DNA from: Solirubrobacterales bacterium
GTDB lineage: Bacteria; Actinomycetota; Thermoleophilia; Solirubrobacterales; 70-9
Assembly (NCBI GenBank): GCA_025936755.1
Contig: JAICSS010000018.1
Coordinates: 1 to 56,503 of the forward strand
Direction: 5' to 3'
Length of the DNA stretch: 56,503 bases
Of the stretch, positions 4,274-16,903 are shown one piece after another. Numbering within the stretch: the first letter of the stretch is position 1; each line of letters starts with the position of its first letter. The position numbers and the translations under genes were made by a program. A model generated the notes under the pieces. That model ran no database searches, was not told the DNA's origin, and saw only the letters and a program-made list of their open reading frames with translations.

Positions 4274-5469
4274 GTAGAAGGGATGGCAACCCCGCCCGCA
4301 CGGCGTGGCTCGTCGTCGCCGGCCTGGTCGTGTTCATGCTCGCGCTCGCCGGTTGCGGCGGCGGCAGCGACACCACCGCCGGTGGCAGCAGCAGCGAAGC
4401 ACTGCAGAAGCTCGGCAAAGGCGAGGGCGAAGTCTCGCTGATCTCCTGGGCCGGCTACGTCGAACCCGGCTGGACCAAGCCGTTCGAACAGAAGACCGGC
4501 TGCAAGGTCAACGACAAGGAAGCCGGCACCTCCGACGAAATGGTCGAGCTGATGAAAACCGGCCAGTACGACGGCGTCTCGGCCTCCGGCAACGCCACCG
4601 CCCGGCTCGTCGCCGCCGGCCTCGTCGCCCCGGTCAACACCGACCTCGTCCCCAACTACAAGACGGTCTTCAGCGACCTCAAGGACCAGCCGTACAACAC
4701 CTTCGAAGGCGTCAACTACGGCATTCCCCACGGCCGCGGCGCCAACCTGCTGATGTGGAACGGCAACGACGTCAAGCCGGCGCCGGACTCCTGGAACGTG
4801 ATGTTCGATCCCAAGGTCGCCGCGAAGTACAAGGGCAAGATCAGCGTCTACGACGAATCCAGCTACATCGCCGACGCCGCCATGTACCTCAAGTTCCACC
4901 AGCCCGAACTGGGGATCGAAAACCCCTACGAGCTGAACGAAGAACAGTTCAACGCGGCGATCGACCTGCTGAAGGAACAGTCGCCGAACGTCGGCGAATA
5001 CTGGTCCGAAGCGGCGAAGCAGATCTCCGCCTTCGCCGGCGGCGACGTCACCGTCGGCACCACCTGGCAGTACCAGTACTTCGCGCTGAAGGAAGAAGGC
5101 GTGCCGGTGCAGGCGAGCCCGGCGAGCCAGGGCTTCCTGCCGAAGGAGGGCGCCACCGGCTGGTCGGACACCTGGATGATCGCCAAGGACGCCAAACATC
5201 CCAACTGCATGTACGAGTGGATGAACTGGATCATCGAACCGAAAGTCAACGCGGAAGTCGCCGAATGGTTCGGCGAGGCGCCGGCGCAGGAACTCGCCTG
5301 CAAGGAAACGGCGAACAAGAACTTCTGCGCCGAATACCACGCCGAAGAACCGGATTTCTGGAAGCGGGTCTACTACTGGGAAACCCCGCTGGCGGACTGC
5401 GGCAACGGCGAAGAAGACTGCATGGACTACAACGACTGGGTGAAGGCCTGGACGACGATCAAAGGCTAG
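4270..5469 (+). CDS. potD: Polyamine-type ABC transporter substrate-binding lipoprotein (PotD-like)
   Basis: Extracellular solute receptor of 399 residues, anchored by lipid. The start ATG at 4270 overlaps the ATPase stop codon and has a strong AAGGAGG ribosome binding site at 4249-4255. A lipobox LALAGC ends the signal sequence, followed by a Gly/Ser linker and a type II periplasmic-binding fold with VSLISWAGYVEPGW at the first strand and GTTWQYQYFA in the second lobe, as in PotD/PotF-like receptors. The ligand may be a polyamine or a related amine; ligand residues cannot be assigned with confidence by eye. Confidence 0.9.
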   Translation: MSRRDGNPARTAWLVVAGLVVFMLALAGCGGGSDTTAGGSSSEALQKLGKGEGEVSLISWAGYVEPGWTKPFEQKTGCKVNDKEAGTSDEMVELMKTGQYDGVSASGNATARLVAAGLVAPVNTDLVPNYKTVFSDLKDQPYNTFEGVNYGIPHGRGANLLMWNGNDVKPAPDSWNVMFDPKVAAKYKGKISVYDESSYIADAAMYLKFHQPELGIENPYELNEEQFNAAIDLLKEQSPNVGEYWSEAAKQISAFAGGDVTVGTTWQYQYFALKEEGVPVQASPASQGFLPKEGATGWSDTWMIAKDAKHPNCMYEWMNWIIEPKVNAEVAEWFGEAPAQELACKETANKNFCAEYHAEEPDFWKRVYYWETPLADCGNGEEDCMDYNDWVKAWTTIKG

Positions 5470-5485
5470 GAAGAGTCTCTAGCTG

Positions 5486-6373
5486 ATGGCATCCGAAGCG
5501 GTCGCGGAGAGGAGGTCGGCGGGCCATCGGCTCGCCGACCTCCTCCACGGCCGCGAGCGCCTGCAGGTAGGGGCGCTGCTGGCCGGCCCGGTCGGCTGGC
5601 TGGTGATCGGCTACCTGGGCTCGCTGGCCCTGCTGCTGGTCGCCGCCTTCTGGTCGGTCGACCCCTTGAGCGGGGCGACGATCAAGGAATTCACCCTCGA
5701 GAACTTCGAATCGCTGGTCAACGAACCGGTCTACCGGGACATCGTCTGGCGGACGGTCCGCACCGCGCTCCTGGTCACGCTCACCGACGCCGTGATCGCC
5801 TTCCCGATCGCCTTCTACATGGCGAAGCTGGCGAGCCGCCGAGGCAAGGCGCTGCTGGTGATCGGGATCCTGCTGCCGCTCTGGTCGAGCTACCTGGTCA
5901 AGGTCTACGCCTGGCGGACGCTGCTCTCGGCCAACGGGGCGATCAACTGGGCGCTCGACCCGATCGGGCTGCATGGCCCGGGCTACGGGATGACCGCGGT
6001 CTGGCTGGTGATGAGCTACCTCTGGCTGCCGTACATGATCCTGCCGATCTACGCCGGCCTGGAACGGATCCCGAACTCGCTGATCAGCGCCTCCGAGGAC
6101 CTCGGCGCCTCCCCCTTCACGACCTTCCGCCGGGTGATCCTGCCCCTCAGCTTCCCGGCCGTCGTCGCCGGCTCGATCTTCACCTTCTCGCTGACGCTGG
6201 GCGACTACATCACCCCGCGCCTGGTCTCCAACGACCAGTTCATCGGCAACGTCATCTTCAGCAACGTCGCCAACAACCAGCCGTTCGCCGCCGCCCTGGC
6301 GATCGTCCCGATCGTCGTCACCATCGCCTACCTCCTGGTCGCCCGCCGGCTGGGAGCCTTCGAGCACGTCTAG
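5486..6373 (+). CDS. potB: Polyamine-type ABC transporter permease (PotB-like)
   Basis: Inner membrane channel subunit, 295 residues, with about six transmembrane segments. The cytoplasmic EAA loop that docks on the ATPase is clear: ASEDLGASPFTTFRRVILPL near residues 203-222. The N-terminus has an extra charged stretch before the first helix, usual for PotB/PotH. It starts 16 bases after the receptor gene and precedes the second permease by 11 bases, so it is the third gene of the operon. Confidence 0.92.
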   Translation: MASEAVAERRSAGHRLADLLHGRERLQVGALLAGPVGWLVIGYLGSLALLLVAAFWSVDPLSGATIKEFTLENFESLVNEPVYRDIVWRTVRTALLVTLTDAVIAFPIAFYMAKLASRRGKALLVIGILLPLWSSYLVKVYAWRTLLSANGAINWALDPIGLHGPGYGMTAVWLVMSYLWLPYMILPIYAGLERIPNSLISASEDLGASPFTTFRRVILPLSFPAVVAGSIFTFSLTLGDYITPRLVSNDQFIGNVIFSNVANNQPFAAALAIVPIVVTIAYLLVARRLGAFEHV

Positions 6374-6384
6374 GGGGCGGCGCG

Positions 6385-7236
6385 ATGAGGCTCTCCCGAC
6401 GTTCGAGGATGCTGCTGCGGCTCGCGGTGGCGGCAGGGCTCGCCTTCATCTACGTGCCGCTGATCGTGATCGCGATCTACGCCTTCAACTCGAGCAAGAT
6501 CCTCGAATGGCCGCCGCCGGGCTTCACCACCCACTGGTTCAGCCAGGCGTTCAACAACGAAGCGGCGCGCGAAGCCTTCTTCACCTCGATCAAAGCCGGG
6601 GTCGCCGCCAGCGCGATCGCCCTCCTCCTCGGCACCCTCGCCTCGATCGCCGTGGCGCGGCACCGTTTCTTCGGACGGGAGACGATCTCCTTCCTCGTCA
6701 TCCTCCCGATCGCCCTGCCCGGCATCGTCACCGGCGTCGCGATCTCCAACACCTTCACCCAGGTCCTCAACGTCCCCCTCAGCCTCTTCACGGTGATCGT
6801 CGGCCACGCGACCTTCTGCATCGTCATCGTCTACAATAACGCCGTCGCCCGCCTCCGCCGCCTCTCCGGATCCTTCGAGGAGGCCTCCGCCGACCTCGGC
6901 GCCCACACCTGGCAGACCTTCCGCTACGTCACCTTCCCGGGGATGCGCAGCGCCCTGATCGCCGGCGGCCTGCTCGCCTTCGCCCTCTCCTTCGACGAGA
7001 TCATCGTCACCAACTTCACGATCGGCGCCGGCGAACAGACCCTGCCGATCTGGATCTACTCCAACCTCTTCCGCCCCCACGAACTCCCGATCGTCAACGC
7101 CGTCGCCGTACTGGTGATCCTGATCTCGATCCTCCCCGTCTACCTCGCCCACCGCCTCGGCGCCGAGGAGGGCGGCGCCACCGGCGGCCGCGCAGCCGGC
7201 GGCGGGGTGGAGACCGAGGCGACCGCGGTCCCCTGA
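6385..7236 (+). CDS. potC: Polyamine-type ABC transporter permease (PotC-like)
   Basis: Second membrane subunit, 283 residues, about six transmembrane helices. EAA loop EEASADLGAHTWQTFRYVTF near 166-185; the LSFDEIIVTNF segment afterwards is typical of PotC/PotI. The start ATG closely follows GGGGCGGCG. It completes the potABDC-type operon. The C-terminal tail is Gly/Ala/Glu rich and of no known role. The convergent carboxylase gene begins its stop codon 12 bases downstream, and no terminator is visible between them. Confidence 0.92.
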   Translation: MRLSRRSRMLLRLAVAAGLAFIYVPLIVIAIYAFNSSKILEWPPPGFTTHWFSQAFNNEAAREAFFTSIKAGVAASAIALLLGTLASIAVARHRFFGRETISFLVILPIALPGIVTGVAISNTFTQVLNVPLSLFTVIVGHATFCIVIVYNNAVARLRRLSGSFEEASADLGAHTWQTFRYVTFPGMRSALIAGGLLAFALSFDEIIVTNFTIGAGEQTLPIWIYSNLFRPHELPIVNAVAVLVILISILPVYLAHRLGAEEGGATGGRAAGGGVETEATAVP

Positions 7237-9398: not shown

Positions 9399-11042
9399 TT
9401 AGAAAAACGCGCCGCCCTTGTATTCGCCGAAGACCTCGCGCATGGCGCCGCAGACCTCGCCGATCGAGGCGTTGGCTTTGAGGGCGGCGCGGATCGGGTG
9501 GAGGAGGTTGCCCTCGCCGCGGGCGACGTCGCGCAGGGACTCGAGCCTGGCGTCGACCTCGGCCTGGTCGCGGTTCTCCTTGAAGGCCGCGAGGCGGGCG
9601 AGCTGGCGCTGCTCGGCCTCGGGGTCGACCTTGAGGATGTCGACGTCGTCGACCTGGTCGGTGACGAACTTGTTGACGCCGACGATCACGTCCTGGCCGC
9701 TCTTGTAGCGCTCGTGGTAGCTCAGGGCCGACTCCTCGATCTCGCGCTGCATGAACTCCAGCGCCTCGACCGAGCCGCCGAGCTCTTCGACCTTGTCCAT
9801 CAGCTCCTTGGCCCGCAGCTCGATCTCGTCGGTCAGCGACTCGACGAAGTAGGACCCGGCGAAGGGGTCGACGGTGTCGGCGGCGCCGGACTCGTAGGCC
9901 AGCACCTGCTGGGTGCGGAGGGCGATCCGGGCCGAGCGCTCGGTCGGCAGCGCCAGCGCCTCGTCGAAGCCGTTGGTGTGCAGCGACTGGGTGCCGCCGC
10001 AGACGGCGGCGAAGCCCTGCAGGGCGACGCGGATGATGTTGACCTCGGGCTGCTGCGCCTGCAGCGTCACGCCACCGGTCTGGGTGTGGAAGCGGATCTG
10101 CATCGATTTCGGGTTCTCGGCCCCGAAGCGGTCCTTGACGATCTCCGCCCACATCCGCCGCACCGCGCGGAACTTGGCGATCTCCTGGAAGACGTTGTTG
10201 TGGCCGTTGAAGAAGAAGGCGAGCCGGGGGGCGAATTCGTCGATCTTCAGGCCGCGGGCAAGCGCGGCTTCGACGTAGGCGATCGCGTTGGAGAGGGTGA
10301 AGGCGACCTCCTGCACAGCGGAGCAGCCCTTCTCGCGGATGTGGTACCCGGAGATCGAGATCGTGTTCCATTTCGGCACGTTCTCGTTGCAGTACTCGAA
10401 GATGTCGGTGGTCAGCCGCATCGTCGGCTCGGCGGGGTAGATGTAGTTCCCGCGCGCCATGTACTCCTTCAGCACGTCGTTCTGGACGGTGCCGCGGAGC
10501 TGCTCGGAGGGCACTCCCTGCTCCTCGCCGACCAGCTCGTAGAGCAGCAGCAGGATCGCCGCCGGCGCGTTGATCGTCATCGAGGTGGAGACGCCGTCGA
10601 GCGGGATCTGGTCGAAGCAGATCCGCATGTCCTCGATCGTGTCGATCGGCACGCCGGTGCGGCCGACCTCGCCGTGGCAGAGCGGGTCGTCGGAGTCGCG
10701 GCCGAGCTGGGTCGGCAGGTCGAAGGCCATCGAGAGCCCCGTGGAGCCGTGCTCGATCAGGTAGCGGTAGCGCTCGTTGGTGTCCTCGGGCGAGGCGAAG
10801 CCGGCGTACTGGCGCATCGTCCAGAGCCGGTCCCGGTACATGCCCTCGTGGATGCCGCGGGTGAACGGCGGCGCACCCGGCTCGCCGAGCCGCTCCTCGA
10901 GGCCAGGGGCGACGTCGCCCTCGTCGTACAGGGGCTTGACCTCGATCCCGGAGTCGGTGAAGACGCGCTCGTCGTCGGGGCCGACCAGGGGCGCGATCGT
11001 GCGGTGCGCCTCCTGGGCGCCGGAGCTGTCGCTGATCGCCAT
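9399..11042 (-). CDS. Methylmalonyl-CoA mutase, catalytic large subunit (two-gene type)
   Basis: Carries the substrate-binding TIM barrel of B12-dependent methylmalonyl-CoA mutase; 547 residues and no DxHxxG cobalamin domain, so a separate B12-binding subunit is needed and must be encoded elsewhere. Seen: [25 protein letters not shown] with the Tyr that distinguishes methylmalonyl- from isobutyryl-CoA mutases, [32 protein letters not shown] and [16 protein letters not shown] with the catalytic His. TATCCT lies eight bases before the ATG, pointing to a near-leaderless transcript. With the carboxylase it forms the methylmalonyl-CoA route between propionyl-CoA and succinyl-CoA. Confidence 0.93.
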
Positions 11043-11240: not shown

Positions 11241-12530
11241 ATGACTGAAGCAACCCAGCCACGGATGGCTAGGGGGACGAAACTGCCTTTGGCCGTTCTC
11301 GCGGCTGCGCTGTTCGCGCTGCTGGCGTTCGCTCCCTTCGCCTCTGCCGCACCCGACCCGGTCGAAAGCGGATCGGCCACCGTCACCCTCAACAACGGCT
11401 TCGTCAAGTCGCTGAAGAAGCGCGGGGTGAAGATCGTCAAGATCAAGCCCGCCAAGCTGAAGGGCAAGAAGGCCACCTTCCCCGTCGTCGGCGGTGAAAT
11501 GGACCCGACCACCGGCGCCGGAACGCTCAGGCTCGGCGGCGGCCTCAAGTTCAAGCACGGCAAGAAGAAGGCTCCAGTCAAGGCCCTCGTGGTCGACACC
11601 AAGAAGAAGGGGCTCTTCGCCAAGGTCGCGGGCAAGAAGGTGAAGCTCGCCACCCTCGCCGGCTGGACCTACACCCGGGCCGGCTTCGGCGTCGCCCTCA
11701 ACGCGAAAAAGCTGAAGCTGACCAAGGCGGCGGCCAAGAAGCTGAACAAGAAGCTCGGCTTCAAAAAGGGCAAGAAGCCGTTCAAGGGAAACCGCAAGAT
11801 GGGCTCGGCTGTCGCTGAAGAGCAGCCGGCGACCGTCACCGTCCTACCCGGCGGCAACGTCAGCTTCAAAGCCGACCAGGGACTGCTGCTGAAGCTGAAA
11901 GACGTCGAAACCGAAGCGAAAGTCATCGCCCCGACCACCGAAAAAGGCCTGGGCAACTACGAACTCCCGATCACCGGGGGGACGATCGCTCCCAGCGGCG
12001 CCGCAGGCGTCGTCCAGACCGCCGGCGGCCTCCTGCTGACGCAGAAACTCCCGACCGGCCCGAGCTCGGCGCTGGAAACGGAAATCACCCTCGGCAACAT
12101 GTGGCTCGACCTCTCGGCCAAAACCGTCACGGTCGAAGTGATCGCTCACTCGAATGCCGAAAGCGAAGGCAAAAAGCCGCTCGATCTCGGCAACCTCGGT
12201 CGCAGCTCGATCGCGGACCTGACCATCACCGGTGTGACCGCCGACGCAGCGGCCCGCACCGTCAGCGTCAGCTCCTCGGCGGCACTGCAGCCGATCTCGG
12301 CTGAAGTGCTGGAGGGCTTCGTCAAGGTCTACCAGGGCTACTACGAAGCCATCTTCTACGGCACTGCGTGTGCCACGGATCCGAGTTTCCCGGGTCATTG
12401 CGCAACGGAAGAAGAAAAAGCAATCGCCAAAGCGGCAGCCAAGAAAGCAGCCGAAGAACGCGTGGCCAAAGACCACATCTCCGCCGGCGACCCGCTGGGC
12501 ACCTTCTCCTTCACCGCCCAGACCCAGTAG
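11241..12530 (+). CDS. Secreted HtaA-like domain protein
   Basis: A 429-residue exported protein with a signal peptide (AVLAAALFALLAFAPFASA, cut near residue 36). The mature part resembles HtaA-type beta repeats: GSATVTLNNGFVKSLKKRGVKI near 43-64 followed by FPVVGGEMDPTTGAGTLRLGGGLKF near 80-104, and a second related unit near 195-300 (ATVTVLPGG, LPITGGTIAP, AGVVQTAGGLLL). In corynebacteria HtaA domains bind haem; here the haem Tyr/His ligands are not evident, so haem binding is unproven. The middle is very Lys-rich (about residues 140-190). GGAGG lies nine bases before the ATG and a strong terminator follows. Confidence 0.75.
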   Translation: MTEATQPRMARGTKLPLAVLAAALFALLAFAPFASAAPDPVESGSATVTLNNGFVKSLKKRGVKIVKIKPAKLKGKKATFPVVGGEMDPTTGAGTLRLGGGLKFKHGKKKAPVKALVVDTKKKGLFAKVAGKKVKLATLAGWTYTRAGFGVALNAKKLKLTKAAAKKLNKKLGFKKGKKPFKGNRKMGSAVAEEQPATVTVLPGGNVSFKADQGLLLKLKDVETEAKVIAPTTEKGLGNYELPITGGTIAPSGAAGVVQTAGGLLLTQKLPTGPSSALETEITLGNMWLDLSAKTVTVEVIAHSNAESEGKKPLDLGNLGRSSIADLTITGVTADAAARTVSVSSSAALQPISAEVLEGFVKVYQGYYEAIFYGTACATDPSFPGHCATEEEKAIAKAAAKKAAEERVAKDHISAGDPLGTFSFTAQTQ

Positions 12531-12651: not shown

Positions 12652-13599
12652 TTAGTCCGAAGCGCCGACCAGGCGCTCGACGCCGCTCTGCTCGATCGTC
12701 CGGCGCAGGCCTTCGCTGAGGGCGATCTTCGGTTCCCAGCCGAGCAGGTCGCGGGCGCGGCCGATGTCGGGGCGGCGCTGCTTCGGGTCGTCGGTGGGAA
12801 GGGCCTCGTAGACGATCTCCGAGCGGGAGTCGGTCAGCTCGATCACGGTCTTCGCCAGTTCCAGCAGCGTGAACTCGTTCGGGTTGCCGATGTTGACGGG
12901 TGAGTGGACGTCGGACTCGGCGAGGCGGACGATGCCGTCGATCAGGTCGTCGACGTAACAGAAGCTGCGGGTCTGGCTGCCGTCGCCGAAGACGGTCAGC
13001 GGCCGGTCCTGCAGCGCCTGGCGCAGGAAGGTCGGGATCGCGCGGCCGTCGTGGGCGCGCATCCGCGGGCCGTAGGTGTTGAAGATCCGGACCATCGCCG
13101 TGTCGACCCCCTGCTGGCGGTGGTAGGCCATCGTCAGCGCCTCGGCGTAGCGCTTGGCCTCGTCGTAGACGCCGCGCGGGCCGATCGGGTTGACGTGCCC
13201 CCAGTAGTCCTCCTTCTGGGGATGGACCTCAGGGTCGCCGTAGACCTCGCTGGTCGAGGCGATCAGGAAGCGGGCGCGCTTCCACTTCGCAACGCCGAGC
13301 ATGTGGTGGGTGCCGTGGGAGCCGACCTTGAGCGTGTGCAGCGGCAGCCGCAGGTAGTCGATCGGGCTCGCCGGGGAGGCGAGATGGTAGACGAAGTCGA
13401 CGTCCTCGGGGATGTCGACCTTCTCCGTGATGTCGATGTTGCGGAACTGGAACGCATCGTCACGGATGTGGGCGATGTTCTCCAACGACCCCGTCTCGAG
13501 GTTGTCGATGCAGATCACCCGGTGCCCGTCCCCGAGCAGGCGTTCGCAGAGGTGGGACCCGAGGAAGCCGGCGCCGCCGGTGACTACGCAGGTGCTCAC
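12652..13599 (-). CDS. NAD-dependent sugar epimerase/dehydratase, UDP-glucuronate decarboxylase-like
   Basis: Extended SDR enzyme acting on a nucleotide sugar, 315 residues. Seen: [15 protein letters not shown] near 8-22, [15 protein letters not shown] (near 72-86, characteristic of UXS-type UDP-xylose synthases), STSEVYGDP near 116-124, YDEAKRYAE with the catalytic Tyr/Lys, [10 protein letters not shown] and the C-terminal [19 protein letters not shown]. It probably converts UDP-glucuronate to UDP-xylose for surface polysaccharide. The GTG start at 13599 is preceded by TAGGAT six bases upstream, so the mRNA is likely leaderless. It is divergent from the sigma/anti-sigma operon. Confidence 0.88.
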
Positions 13600-13772
13600 G
13601 CCGCGATCCTACCGTCCCGGGGCTCCCCTGGACGTTCCTCGGAGCCGTTCTGCAATTTCCGGCCTTCGCGGCTGAGGCATCCGTCCAATCGGGGGGAGAG
13701 ATATGCCTCCCTCGTGCCTCGCGTTGGCAGTGTCCGATGCGAAGAGCCAAACCAGCAGGGGGAATTTGACCG

Positions 13773-14993
13773 GTGGAAGATGACGCGGCCCGCCAGCGAG
13801 CGGCTGTGGAGACCTACGCGCGAAACGAGACGAGTCTGCGACGGACCGCCCGCCGCTTCTCGCTCTGTCACGACGACGCCGAGGAAGCTCTCCAGCGCAG
13901 CCTCGAGATCCTCCTCCGCAAGGCCCCCGGCGACGACCCGCGGCACCTGGTCAAGTGGATGCAGACGGTCGTCAAGCGAGAGGCGATGGCGTTGCGCCGG
14001 GACCGGGAGCGCATTCTCGCCGGCCCGGCCGCGCTCGAGCCGGAGCCCGGGATGGACGACTGGGTCTCCCTCCTCCCCGCAGATGGCGACGAGCCGCCGG
14101 AGCGGGCCGAGCGGCAGGAGGCGGTCGCCCGCAGCCGCGAGGCGCTGGGGGCTCTGAAGCCGCACGAGCTGCGGGCGCTGTCGCTGCTGGCTCACGGTTA
14201 CTCCTACGTGGAGATCGGCGAGATCACCGGCTTCAGCGCGACGAAGATCAATCGCTCGCTTGCCGAGGGGCGCGAGCGGTTCCGGCGGATGGTCGCGCGC
14301 AGCGAGGGGGGCGAGCGCTGCCTGGAGATGAAGCCGCTGCTCTCGGCCTTCTGCGACGGCGCGGTGACGGCGGCCGAGATGGCCGAGCTGCGGGAGCACC
14401 TGCGCGCCTGCGCCCACTGCCGGGCGACGCTGCGGGCCTACCGGGCGGCGCCGGCGGCCGCGGCTGCGCTGGCTCCCGCGCTGCCGCTGCACCGCTCGCT
14501 GTGGGAACGGGCCCACGATGCCTTCGGTGAGCTGGCCGGGCGCTTCGGCGGCGGTGGGGCGGCCGCCGGAAGCGGCGTCGGCGGAACCGGGCTCGCCGGT
14601 TTGGCGAAGGTGACGGCGCTCTGCATCGGCACCGCGGCCGGTGCGGCGGTCTGCGTCGCCGGCGGCATCGTGCCCTCGCCGCTCGCCGCCCGGCATGAGC
14701 GCCCGGCCCAGGCGGAGCGGCACCTGACGGAGGCGCCGACGCGACGAGCTCGGATCGCCAAGGTCGAGTACGGGACGGCGCCGGCCCCCGCGCCCGAACC
14801 GAAACCCTCGCCCAAGCCGAAGTCGTCTCCCTCCTCGCCGGAGCCGCCCGCCGAGAGCGAACCGGCGCCCGAACCCGCTCCGGTCCTCAGCAGCGAAACG
14901 GTCGAATACGAACCGTCTCCGGCCCCCGAACCCGAACCCGCTCCGGTCGCCAGCCCCGCCGGCGACACGCCGGCGGGCGAGTTCGGCCCATGA
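13773..14993 (+). CDS. ECF sigma factor fused to a zinc anti-sigma-like, membrane-anchored, Pro/Glu-rich tail
   Basis: A 406-residue fusion. Residues 12-75 resemble sigma region 2, and 121-175 region 4 with the helix-turn-helix YVEIGEITGFSATKINRSL. Next comes a short HxxxCxxC module (His209, Cys213, Cys216) like the zinc finger of anti-sigma factors, a hydrophobic segment 276-300 able to span the membrane, and a Pro/Glu/Ser-rich tail (331-406) with a duplicated PEPAPV unit, which would lie outside the cell. The GTG start has AGGGGG upstream. ATGA overlap couples it to the next gene. It may be a one-protein sensor whose sigma part is held at the membrane until released (inference). The 173-base gap before it, shared with the divergent epimerase gene, shows no assignable ECF promoter. 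Confidence 0.8.
   Translation: MEDDAARQRAAVETYARNETSLRRTARRFSLCHDDAEEALQRSLEILLRKAPGDDPRHLVKWMQTVVKREAMALRRDRERILAGPAALEPEPGMDDWVSLLPADGDEPPERAERQEAVARSREALGALKPHELRALSLLAHGYSYVEIGEITGFSATKINRSLAEGRERFRRMVARSEGGERCLEMKPLLSAFCDGAVTAAEMAELREHLRACAHCRATLRAYRAAPAAAAALAPALPLHRSLWERAHDAFGELAGRFGGGGAAAGSGVGGTGLAGLAKVTALCIGTAAGAAVCVAGGIVPSPLAARHERPAQAERHLTEAPTRRARIAKVEYGTAPAPAPEPKPSPKPKSSPSSPEPPAESEPAPEPAPVLSSETVEYEPSPAPEPEPAPVASPAGDTPAGEFGP
14955..14977 (+). promoter_or_regulatory. Perfect 9-bp hairpin before the coupled start codon
   Basis: CCCGCCGGC and GCCGGCGGG flank a GACAC loop inside the last codons of the sigma fusion, 12 bases before the ATG at 14990. No ribosome binding site is seen there, so translation of the next gene probably depends on ribosomes unfolding this hairpin while finishing the first gene. 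Confidence 0.5.
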
Positions 14994-16903
14994 GCGCTCT
15001 TCGCGACAGAGCCATCCTCGCGCTCACCGCGGCTCTGGCCGCGCTTCTCATCGCTTCCGCCTCGGTCAGCGCGGCCTCGGCTGCGGAGTCGTGGCAGGCC
15101 GGCAACGTGTTCGAAATCGTCCCCCAGCAGGTTCCCGGCAGCGCCGCGGGCGCAACCAACGCCTTCTACCGACTCCGTAACGAAGAGGGCGAGCAGCTCG
15201 GGGTGGTGGTGGAACGATCGATGATCGACCTGGTCAAGCGGCTGGAAGTGCCGCCCGTGCCGGGTGTCTACTCCTTGGAGGCCTGGCTGGAGAACGCAAG
15301 AGGCGAAGAGCTGCGGCGGGCGACGGCGACGCTGCGCTTCGACGACGTCGCGCCCTCGCCGCCTCGGCCCGAAGCCCCTGACCGCTGGCTGCTGGCCACC
15401 GAGCCGGCTCCGCTGCGGATCGGCCATCCGGCGACGCCGCTGCCGATCTCGGGCCTCCGCGGCTACGCGGTCTCCCTCGACCGCGGCGGCGGCAGCTACC
15501 CCTGCGCCGTACCCGGCCTCTGCGAGGCCGGGGAGACCGATCTCGCCGGCGGGATCGCCGACGACCACCTCTCCCTCGGGACCCTGCCCGAGGGACTCAC
15601 CTACGCCCGCGTCGTCGCCGTCTCCGGCGCCGGGGTCGCCTCGCCGCCGCAGACCGCCGTCTTCAGGGTCGACGCGACGCTGCCGCAGGTCTCCCTGGCG
15701 GGGGCACCGAGCGGCTGGAGCTCCGGGCCGGTGAAGCTGGCGGCGCGGGCGTCCGACTCGCTGTCCGGGATGACGGCGGCCGGCCCGACCGGTCCGTTCA
15801 CGGCGCTCGCCGTCGACGGCGGCGCTCCCACCATCGCCGCGGGCGACACCGCGAGCGCCTGGATCGGCGGCAGCGGCGTCCACAGGGTCGTCTTCTACGC
15901 CCGCGACGCCGCCGGCAACGTCGCCGACGGGTCCGCGGGAGGGCCGGCGCCGCAGACGGCGCTCGTCCGGATCGACGAAACGCCGCCCGAGGTCGAGTTC
16001 GCCCGCGCGCAGGACCCGGCCGACCCGGAGCGGATCGAAGCGACCGTCGGCGACGCGCTTTCCGGGCCGAGCCCGAGCCGGGGCTCGATCGGGGTCCGCC
16101 CGGCCGGGACCCGAGCCGGTTTCGAGCAGCTTCCGACGCGGGTGGAGGGCAACCGGCTGGTCGCCCGCTGGCGCTCCGACGATTACCCGGAGGGCAAGTA
16201 CGAGTTCCTCGCCACCGGCTTCGACCTCGCCGGCAACGCCGGCAGCGGCGCCGACCGCGCCCGCGGCGGCCGGATGGTCCTGGTCAACCCGCTGAAGACG
16301 CCGGTGGCGCTGACGGCGGAGCTCTCCGGCCGCCGCCTGGACGGGCGCCTGCGGCGCGCAGGGGGCGGCGCGCTCGCCGGGCAGGAGGTGGCGATCGCCG
16401 AGACCTTCGCCGACGGCGCCGCGCCGGCCCAGAGAACGACGCTCCTCCGCACCCGCGCCGACGGGACCTTCACGCTGCGCCTTCGCAGGGGGCCGAGCCG
16501 GGAGCTGTCCGCCAGCTTCGCCGGCACGCACCTGTTCAGCCGTGCCATGGCGCCGGCGGTCCGGCTGGCGGCGAGCAGCGAGCTCCGGTTCCGAGCCTCG
16601 GCCGCGAGCGCCAGGGTCGGCGGCCGGCCGGTCGTCTTCAGCGGCAGGGTCGCGACCAGGGGAACCGAGGCCGGCGCCGGCGCGAAGCTGCCGGTCGAGC
16701 TGCAGTTCCGCTACCGCGGCGCCCCCTGGTCGGAGTTCCGCACGGTCGAGACCGACGCCCGCGGCCGCTTCCGCTACGCCTACCGCTTCAGCGACGACGA
16801 CAGCCGCGGCGTCCGCTTCCGGTTCCGCGCCTACGTCAAAGGCCGCGAGGGCTGGCCCTATGAGCCAAGCGCCTCGCGGCCGGTGACGGTTACCGGTCGC
16901 TAG
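14990..16903 (+). CDS. Secreted Ig-like repeat protein coupled to the sigma fusion
   Basis: A 637-residue exported protein: signal peptide 1-31 (LALTAALAALLIASASVSAASA), then beta-rich Ig/fibronectin-like modules. Repeated marks are DATLPQVSLAGAPSGWSSGPVKL and VRIDETPPEVEFARA (the start of successive modules) and GVHRVVFYARDAAGNVADGS and GKYEFLATGFDLAGNAGSG (their ends). The C-terminal third (about 430-637) holds two carboxypeptidase-regulatory-like folds (GTFTLRLRRG, GRFRYAYRF). It overlaps the sigma gene by ATGA, so the surface protein is probably made in step with its regulator. No catalytic motif is seen; adhesion or signal sensing is a guess. Its stop shares CTAG with the convergent gene. 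Confidence 0.8.
   Translation: MSALRDRAILALTAALAALLIASASVSAASAAESWQAGNVFEIVPQQVPGSAAGATNAFYRLRNEEGEQLGVVVERSMIDLVKRLEVPPVPGVYSLEAWLENARGEELRRATATLRFDDVAPSPPRPEAPDRWLLATEPAPLRIGHPATPLPISGLRGYAVSLDRGGGSYPCAVPGLCEAGETDLAGGIADDHLSLGTLPEGLTYARVVAVSGAGVASPPQTAVFRVDATLPQVSLAGAPSGWSSGPVKLAARASDSLSGMTAAGPTGPFTALAVDGGAPTIAAGDTASAWIGGSGVHRVVFYARDAAGNVADGSAGGPAPQTALVRIDETPPEVEFARAQDPADPERIEATVGDALSGPSPSRGSIGVRPAGTRAGFEQLPTRVEGNRLVARWRSDDYPEGKYEFLATGFDLAGNAGSGADRARGGRMVLVNPLKTPVALTAELSGRRLDGRLRRAGGGALAGQEVAIAETFADGAAPAQRTTLLRTRADGTFTLRLRRGPSRELSASFAGTHLFSRAMAPAVRLAASSELRFRASAASARVGGRPVVFSGRVATRGTEAGAGAKLPVELQFRYRGAPWSEFRTVETDARGRFRYAYRFSDDDSRGVRFRFRAYVKGREGWPYEPSASRPVTVTGR

Follow-up and report, generated by a model that had tools for sequence, protein, structure and literature searches.

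A membrane-anchored sigma/anti-sigma fusion with a conserved C-terminal motif and a secreted Ig-like neighbour: a candidate envelope sensor of Thermoleophilia

The fusion gene and its secreted neighbour

Contig JAICSS010000018.1 of a Solirubrobacterales bacterium (GenBank assembly GCA_025936755.1; 56,503 nucleotides, hereafter the window) carries two overlapping genes whose products may together sense the state of the cell envelope. The first (13773..14993; all features of the pair lie on the + strand) begins with GTG and specifies a 406-residue fusion of an extracytoplasmic function (ECF) sigma factor, a class I zinc anti-sigma domain, a membrane helix and an outer tail. The second (14990..16903) encodes a 637-residue secreted partner with a signal peptide and several immunoglobulin-like (Ig-like) beta-sandwich domains. 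Stop and start overlap by 4 nt in an ATGA (14990..14993; junction ccc-ATGA-gcgc), a putative site of translational coupling, and both reading frames have the codon-position GC bias typical of real genes. A first-pass annotation had described sigma regions 2 and 4, an HxxxCxxC zinc module, a membrane helix and a Pro/Glu-rich outer tail in one chain, followed by an ATGA-overlapping gene for a secreted multi-domain Ig-like protein. Pfam searches, Kyte-Doolittle hydropathy and AlphaFold2 (AF2) modelling confirmed the first part of this description, and the reading frame, signal peptide and all-beta model of the partner confirmed the second.

Within the fusion, the zinc motif C183-x25-H209-x3-C213-x2-C216 (14319..14420) falls in a Pfam zf-HC2 match that exceeds its cut-off (E 2.2e-7, residues 183-217). 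Sigma region 2 (approximately residues 11-82; 13803..14018) and region 4, which includes a helix-turn-helix (approximately residues 108-179; 14094..14309), score just under the Pfam cut-offs (E 1.4e-3 and 9.4e-4, respectively), and TIGR02937 falls slightly short of its own (E 1.5e-10; 40.9 bits against 42.9 bits), which marks the protein as a divergent ECF sigma factor. In an AF2 model built with 22 orthologs, sigma2, sigma4 and the zinc domain are folded with predicted local distance difference test (pLDDT) scores mostly above 90, the helices of region 2 among them. Foldseek matched this model to ECF sigma factors and to sigma/anti-sigma complexes including SigE/RseA, SigK/RskA and SigW/RsiW, such that the sigma2 and sigma4 domains of an ECF sigma factor are both recognisable by fold. 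The zinc-domain helices occupy residues 187-236 and thus set the Hx3Cx2C motif in a helical domain, as in ZAS/ASDI proteins. In the alignment of 22 orthologs all four zinc ligands are invariant, and the core residues of sigma regions 2 and 4 are invariant or nearly so.

A single membrane helix (approximately residues 272-300; 14586..14672) is indicated by a Kyte-Doolittle peak of 2.05 at residues 282-300 and by AF2, which places it at residues 272-296 with low confidence. In class I anti-sigma domains the fourth helix contacts sigma2 (PMC7406223), and a candidate equivalent is predicted in the fusion at residues 243-259 (14499..14549) with moderate confidence only (pLDDT ~65-70). Beyond the membrane helix lies a Pro/Glu-rich tail (14673..14975) that is predicted to be disordered (low pLDDT). 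Taken together, sequence and model support the view that the gene specifies a sigma factor joined in cis to a class I zinc anti-sigma domain and anchored in the membrane.

Proteins of this general kind have been described, and the fusion itself is therefore not new. The ECF52 protein SCO4117 of Streptomyces coelicolor likewise joins an ECF sigma factor, a zinc finger, a membrane helix and a Pro-rich outer extension in one chain (PMC5826349, PMC8999054), which is the order found in the window. However, ECF52 proteins carry a fused carbohydrate-binding module at their end, whereas no Pfam domain was found after the membrane helix of the window fusion, which lacks that module, ends instead in GEFGP and has a separate secreted Ig-like protein encoded next door. 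In the actinobacterial ECF48 and ECF53 proteins, too, the C-terminal fusion comprises a zinc anti-sigma-like domain together with either one membrane helix or two; in this comparison, made by description only, the review in question reports neither a C-terminal motif nor a secreted partner for them (PMC8999054).

The zinc site raises the alternative that the fusion is under redox control, with the CHCC site as the sensor and the membrane helix and tail merely localising the protein. Its ligands begin with Cys, are invariant in the 22 orthologs and have exactly the spacing of RsrA, the zinc anti-sigma factor of Streptomyces SigR (Cys11/His37/Cys41/Cys44), whose redox sensitivity is due to that first-position Cys (PMC4960319). 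RsrA itself is a separate 105-residue protein that senses disulfide stress in the cytoplasm, whereas the domain in the window is fused and membrane-anchored. Against redox control, the zinc motif may have a structural role in anti-sigma factors bound to the membrane (PMC7406223), and a redox sensor would leave the conservation of the outer end, the secreted partner and the coupling of the two genes unexplained. We consider this alternative distinctly unlikely.

The partner is modelled as an all-beta protein of several Ig-like sandwiches (mean pLDDT 89) behind a signal peptide at its start, and its matches in the PDB are generic multi-Ig/FnIII rods. Pfam matches to Ig domains are weak in the window partner and surpass the gathering score in some orthologs; orthologs from outside the genus or family are often longer (~950 residues) and match Big_13 and, more weakly, carboxypeptidase-regulatory-like domains. 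Overlap with the preceding gene is the rule, as 40 of 50 fusions with an adjacent partner end in ATGA, GTGA or TTGA. Two further observations concern the partner family. At several loci the partner gene is followed by one for a small secreted protein with a start like 'YANVTATLALFVALGGGAYA' or 'PSPAMV' (L222:7409-8035, L224:7780-8361, L223 and L072:5639-6070), and those tested had no match in Pfam or NCBIfam. In addition, the window's own genome encodes a partner paralog (L065:105-2816) with no fusion gene directly upstream.

The end of the outer tail

The first-pass annotation had missed what proved to be the most conserved part of the tail. Among the 22 orthologs the tails cannot be aligned except at their extreme end, where the consensus is GEFGP (14976..14990 in the window, ending at the carboxyl terminus), and across the class Thermoleophilia the fusions end in (E/Q)-F-G-(x)-P or close variants. 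Forty-seven of 89 unique complete fusions end in E[FLMY]xP, and others in EFxPE, EMGLE, FGFE or GLAP. Moreover, every called gene ending in E[FLM]xP in the DNA retrieved for comparison is a fusion, and in the window's own genome EFGP codons followed by TAA or TGA occur at one place only, the window locus. Related motifs recur inside the tails: the window fusion has an internal copy, E-Y-E-P (14904..14915), and in 40 tails we counted 34 occurrences of E[FY]xP against 1.56 expected from shuffled sequences, an excess that should not be read as a formal probability because the sequences are related.

We considered whether GEFGP, rather than being a protein motif, could simply result from codons dictated by the partner's ribosome-binding site (ggGGAG) together with the ATGA overlap. 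In congeners the codons ggg-gag-ttc-ggc-cca-tga do contain a GGGGAG that lies about 8 nt upstream of the partner's start. Such an origin predicts that EFGP is lost wherever the overlap is absent, yet four loci without an overlapping gene (L028-L031) keep (G/S)EFGP with different codons and TAG or TGA stops, and L097 retains EFGP with ccc-gag. The persistence of the motif without an overlapping partner gene indicates that the protein is what is under selection, and the excess of internal E[FY]xP copies likewise argues against a nucleotide-level origin, an explanation that we disfavour and regard as extremely unlikely.

A literature search, whose reach did not extend to the main ECF classification paper, found no description of the EFGP hook, its internal copies or a conserved secreted Ig-like partner, in Thermoleophilia or elsewhere. 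The hook and the paired secreted protein thus appear to be undescribed.

Distribution of the pair and its relatives

Of 61 related genomes, 54 contain relatives of the fusion. The partner adjoins the fusion in all 11 other genomes of the same genus (in one of them the fusion is split across two contigs), and both counts argue that the pairing is not due to chance. Among named records the family occurs in Solirubrobacterales, Thermoleophilaceae, Solirubrobacteraceae and Miltoncostaeaceae; matches outside the class, in a sample of the phylum, are weak, and plasmid records contained no relative. Five contigs titled 'Bifidobacterium breve' (L151, L153, L157, L185 and L198) carry fusions of the Thermoleophilia type that group with Thermoleophilia in the tree, and are probably mislabelled metagenome bins.

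Adjacent pairs extend beyond close orthologs. In five genomes (G012, G014, G022, G044 and G037) a diverged fusion with a barely recognisable sigma part stands next to an Ig-like partner and ends in EEFGP, NQEFGP, QREFGP, EEFGIE or QEFTP, although the position of these pairs in the tree is unsure because their branches are long. A further set of fusions, from the window's genus and one related genus, ends in PQFGGP and has the partner adjacent. One genome (G007) contains four PQFGGP pairs in addition to an ortholog of the window pair; counting paralogous pairs in related genomes, as the first-pass annotation had proposed, thus yields at least five fusion/partner pairs in a single genome. That window-type and diverged pairs exclude each other between genomes could be ruled out, as G007, G009 and G011 have both.

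Other relatives lack parts of the system. A separate group of sigma-zinc-membrane fusions (19 rows, forming one group in the tree) has neither the motif nor an Ig-like partner of this family, and includes two loci of the window's own genome, L063 and L064. At L064 the motif-less fusion is followed by a gene (4793-7027) for a secreted 744-residue protein, a stretch of which resembles GH26 (Pfam E 2.9e-11), making this another candidate sigma/secreted-protein pair. Within the same family there is a clade in which the locus next to the epimerase gene described below specifies a stand-alone sigma factor without anti-sigma domain, membrane helix, tail or adjacent partner, such that at this locus absence of the tail coincides with absence of the partner; no separate anti-sigma gene was found beside the stand-alone sigma factors. 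A single chain from a distant actinobacterium (L251) holds sigma, zf-HC2, hydrophobic segments and, beyond them, a Big_7 Ig domain, a natural fusion which suggests that Ig domains can form the outer part of such sensors.

These relatives also bear on the possibility that the sigma part has decayed to the point of no longer driving transcription, which would make the pair a surface structure whose cytoplasmic domain is a vestige. The scores of regions 2 and 4 below curated cut-offs would fit such decay, as would the failure to detect region 2 in those diverged pairs that were tested. Nevertheless, we regard degeneration as very unlikely, given the near-invariance of the region 2 and 4 core residues, the confidently predicted fold and the clade that has retained the sigma part alone as a free protein.

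A possible envelope sensor and its surroundings

The reading of the pair that we favour, and to which we give even prospects, starts from a membrane-tethered ECF sigma factor that its own zinc anti-sigma domain would hold inactive in cis. A single helix would span the membrane, with the N-terminus inside and the C-terminus outside, and the disordered Pro/Glu tail would extend into or through the wall to present the EFGP hook along with the E[FY]xP copies inside the tail. The rod-like Ig protein, translated together with the fusion and secreted, would serve as an extracytoplasmic sensor or cap that binds the hook. Envelope damage, a ligand or loss of the partner would alter this contact and expose the tail to cleavage, and a site-1-type cut outside followed by a site-2-type cut in the membrane would then free the sigma part to act on its target genes. 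Of this scheme, sequence and models show the domain order, the membrane helix, the secretion signal, the conservation of the motif and of the coupling, and the existence of paralogous pairs.

Several known systems lend the proteolytic step plausibility. IutY of Pseudomonas putida (ECF243) also unites a sigma factor and a membrane anti-sigma factor in one chain, and its release, by Prc and RseP, has been characterised experimentally; IutY differs in belonging to iron-starvation cell-surface signalling and responding to aerobactin, whereas the partner in the window is a multi-Ig secreted protein (PMC8999054). Release by proteolysis is expected for ECF48, ECF52 and ECF53, and for ECF52/SCO4117 proteolytic activation is the supported model (PMC8999054; PMC5826349). 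The window's genome itself encodes two M50 (site-2) proteases and one S41 protease. RsgI of the Bacillus subtilis SigI system offers an analogy in how it works and nothing further; its sigma factor is a separate protein. RsgI is not known to have a zinc anti-sigma domain, an EFGP motif or an Ig partner.

Several findings weigh against a sensor of this form. M50 proteases are encoded in 14 of 14 control genomes and S41 proteases in 10 of 14, and being so widespread they are permissive evidence only; DNA binding is not assured for a sigma domain that scores below curated cut-offs. Adjacency, whose loss the first-pass annotation had named as grounds for refutation, holds in the genus, in several diverged lineages and in most relatives overall but is not universal: 27 of 69 motif-bearing fusions have no adjacent partner, and loci of Thermoleophilaceae-like and lake Solirubrobacteraceae genomes keep the motif where the adjacent partner is missing. 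The neighbour thus cannot be the sole reader of the motif, and another or unlinked reader may exist. The association of motif with partner by counts (Fisher p 1e-4) is not independent evidence, because a phylogenetic independent-pairs test was not significant. The proposal of a two-protein envelope-sensing unit therefore stands in part: it gains from the conserved neighbour, the usual 4-nt overlap, the paralogous pairs, the single-chain L251 protein and the one locus at which tail and partner are both absent, but a strict two-gene unit is weakened by the partnerless EFGP loci and by an association that is no longer significant once ancestry is controlled.

The same loci bring in the main rival. 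On this view the EFGP end serves as a tag onto which a site-1 protease (tail-specific or PDZ-type) or some other receptor in the envelope docks, and the Ig protein, though co-expressed, is a surface protein made as an output and does not read the tag. A terminal proline is unusual in PDZ ligands, which we count against such a tag. In its favour, the motif forms the very C-terminus and is kept without an adjacent partner, an S41 protease is encoded in the genome, and C-terminal signals are read by PDZ domains in other envelope-stress systems (DegS; PMC10202637). The internal E[FY]xP copies, however, are not C-terminal, diverged lineages repeatedly combine the Ig partner with the motif, and the gene overlap suggests that synthesis of the two proteins is coupled. 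On balance we judge a protease or receptor tag to be a serious contender, though an unlikely one.

Returning to a hook read by the Ig partner, we tentatively extend it to the class: Thermoleophilia may possess an envelope module of in-cis sigma/anti-sigma proteins whose multivalent E[FY]xP...EFGP-COOH motif is read by co-translated secreted multi-Ig proteins, and the paralogous pairs, several to a genome, would act in parallel as sensors insulated from one another. Inputs to the outer parts of known fused sigma/anti-sigma proteins are mostly obscure, and the hook with its co-translated partner would provide a concrete, peptide-sized input in a poorly studied class, while the repeated pairs could reveal how envelope sensors that work in parallel are kept insulated from each other.

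In the divergent intergenic region that precedes the fusion, two blocks of the form GCAATTT...GGGGGAG (13652..13698, +) are conserved in same-family alignments and are a promoter or leader candidate. A genome search with these blocks gave one exact match, the window itself, and no regulon was inferred from it. Across this region lies a divergently transcribed gene for an NAD-dependent sugar epimerase/dehydratase (12652-13599), which adjoins the fusion or the stand-alone sigma factor in several genera; the two genes possibly share regulation. Farther out are genes for a secreted HtaA-domain protein (11241-12530) and a methylmalonyl-CoA mutase-like protein (9399-11042), and look-alikes of the latter also occur near f3 fusions (L105, L106).
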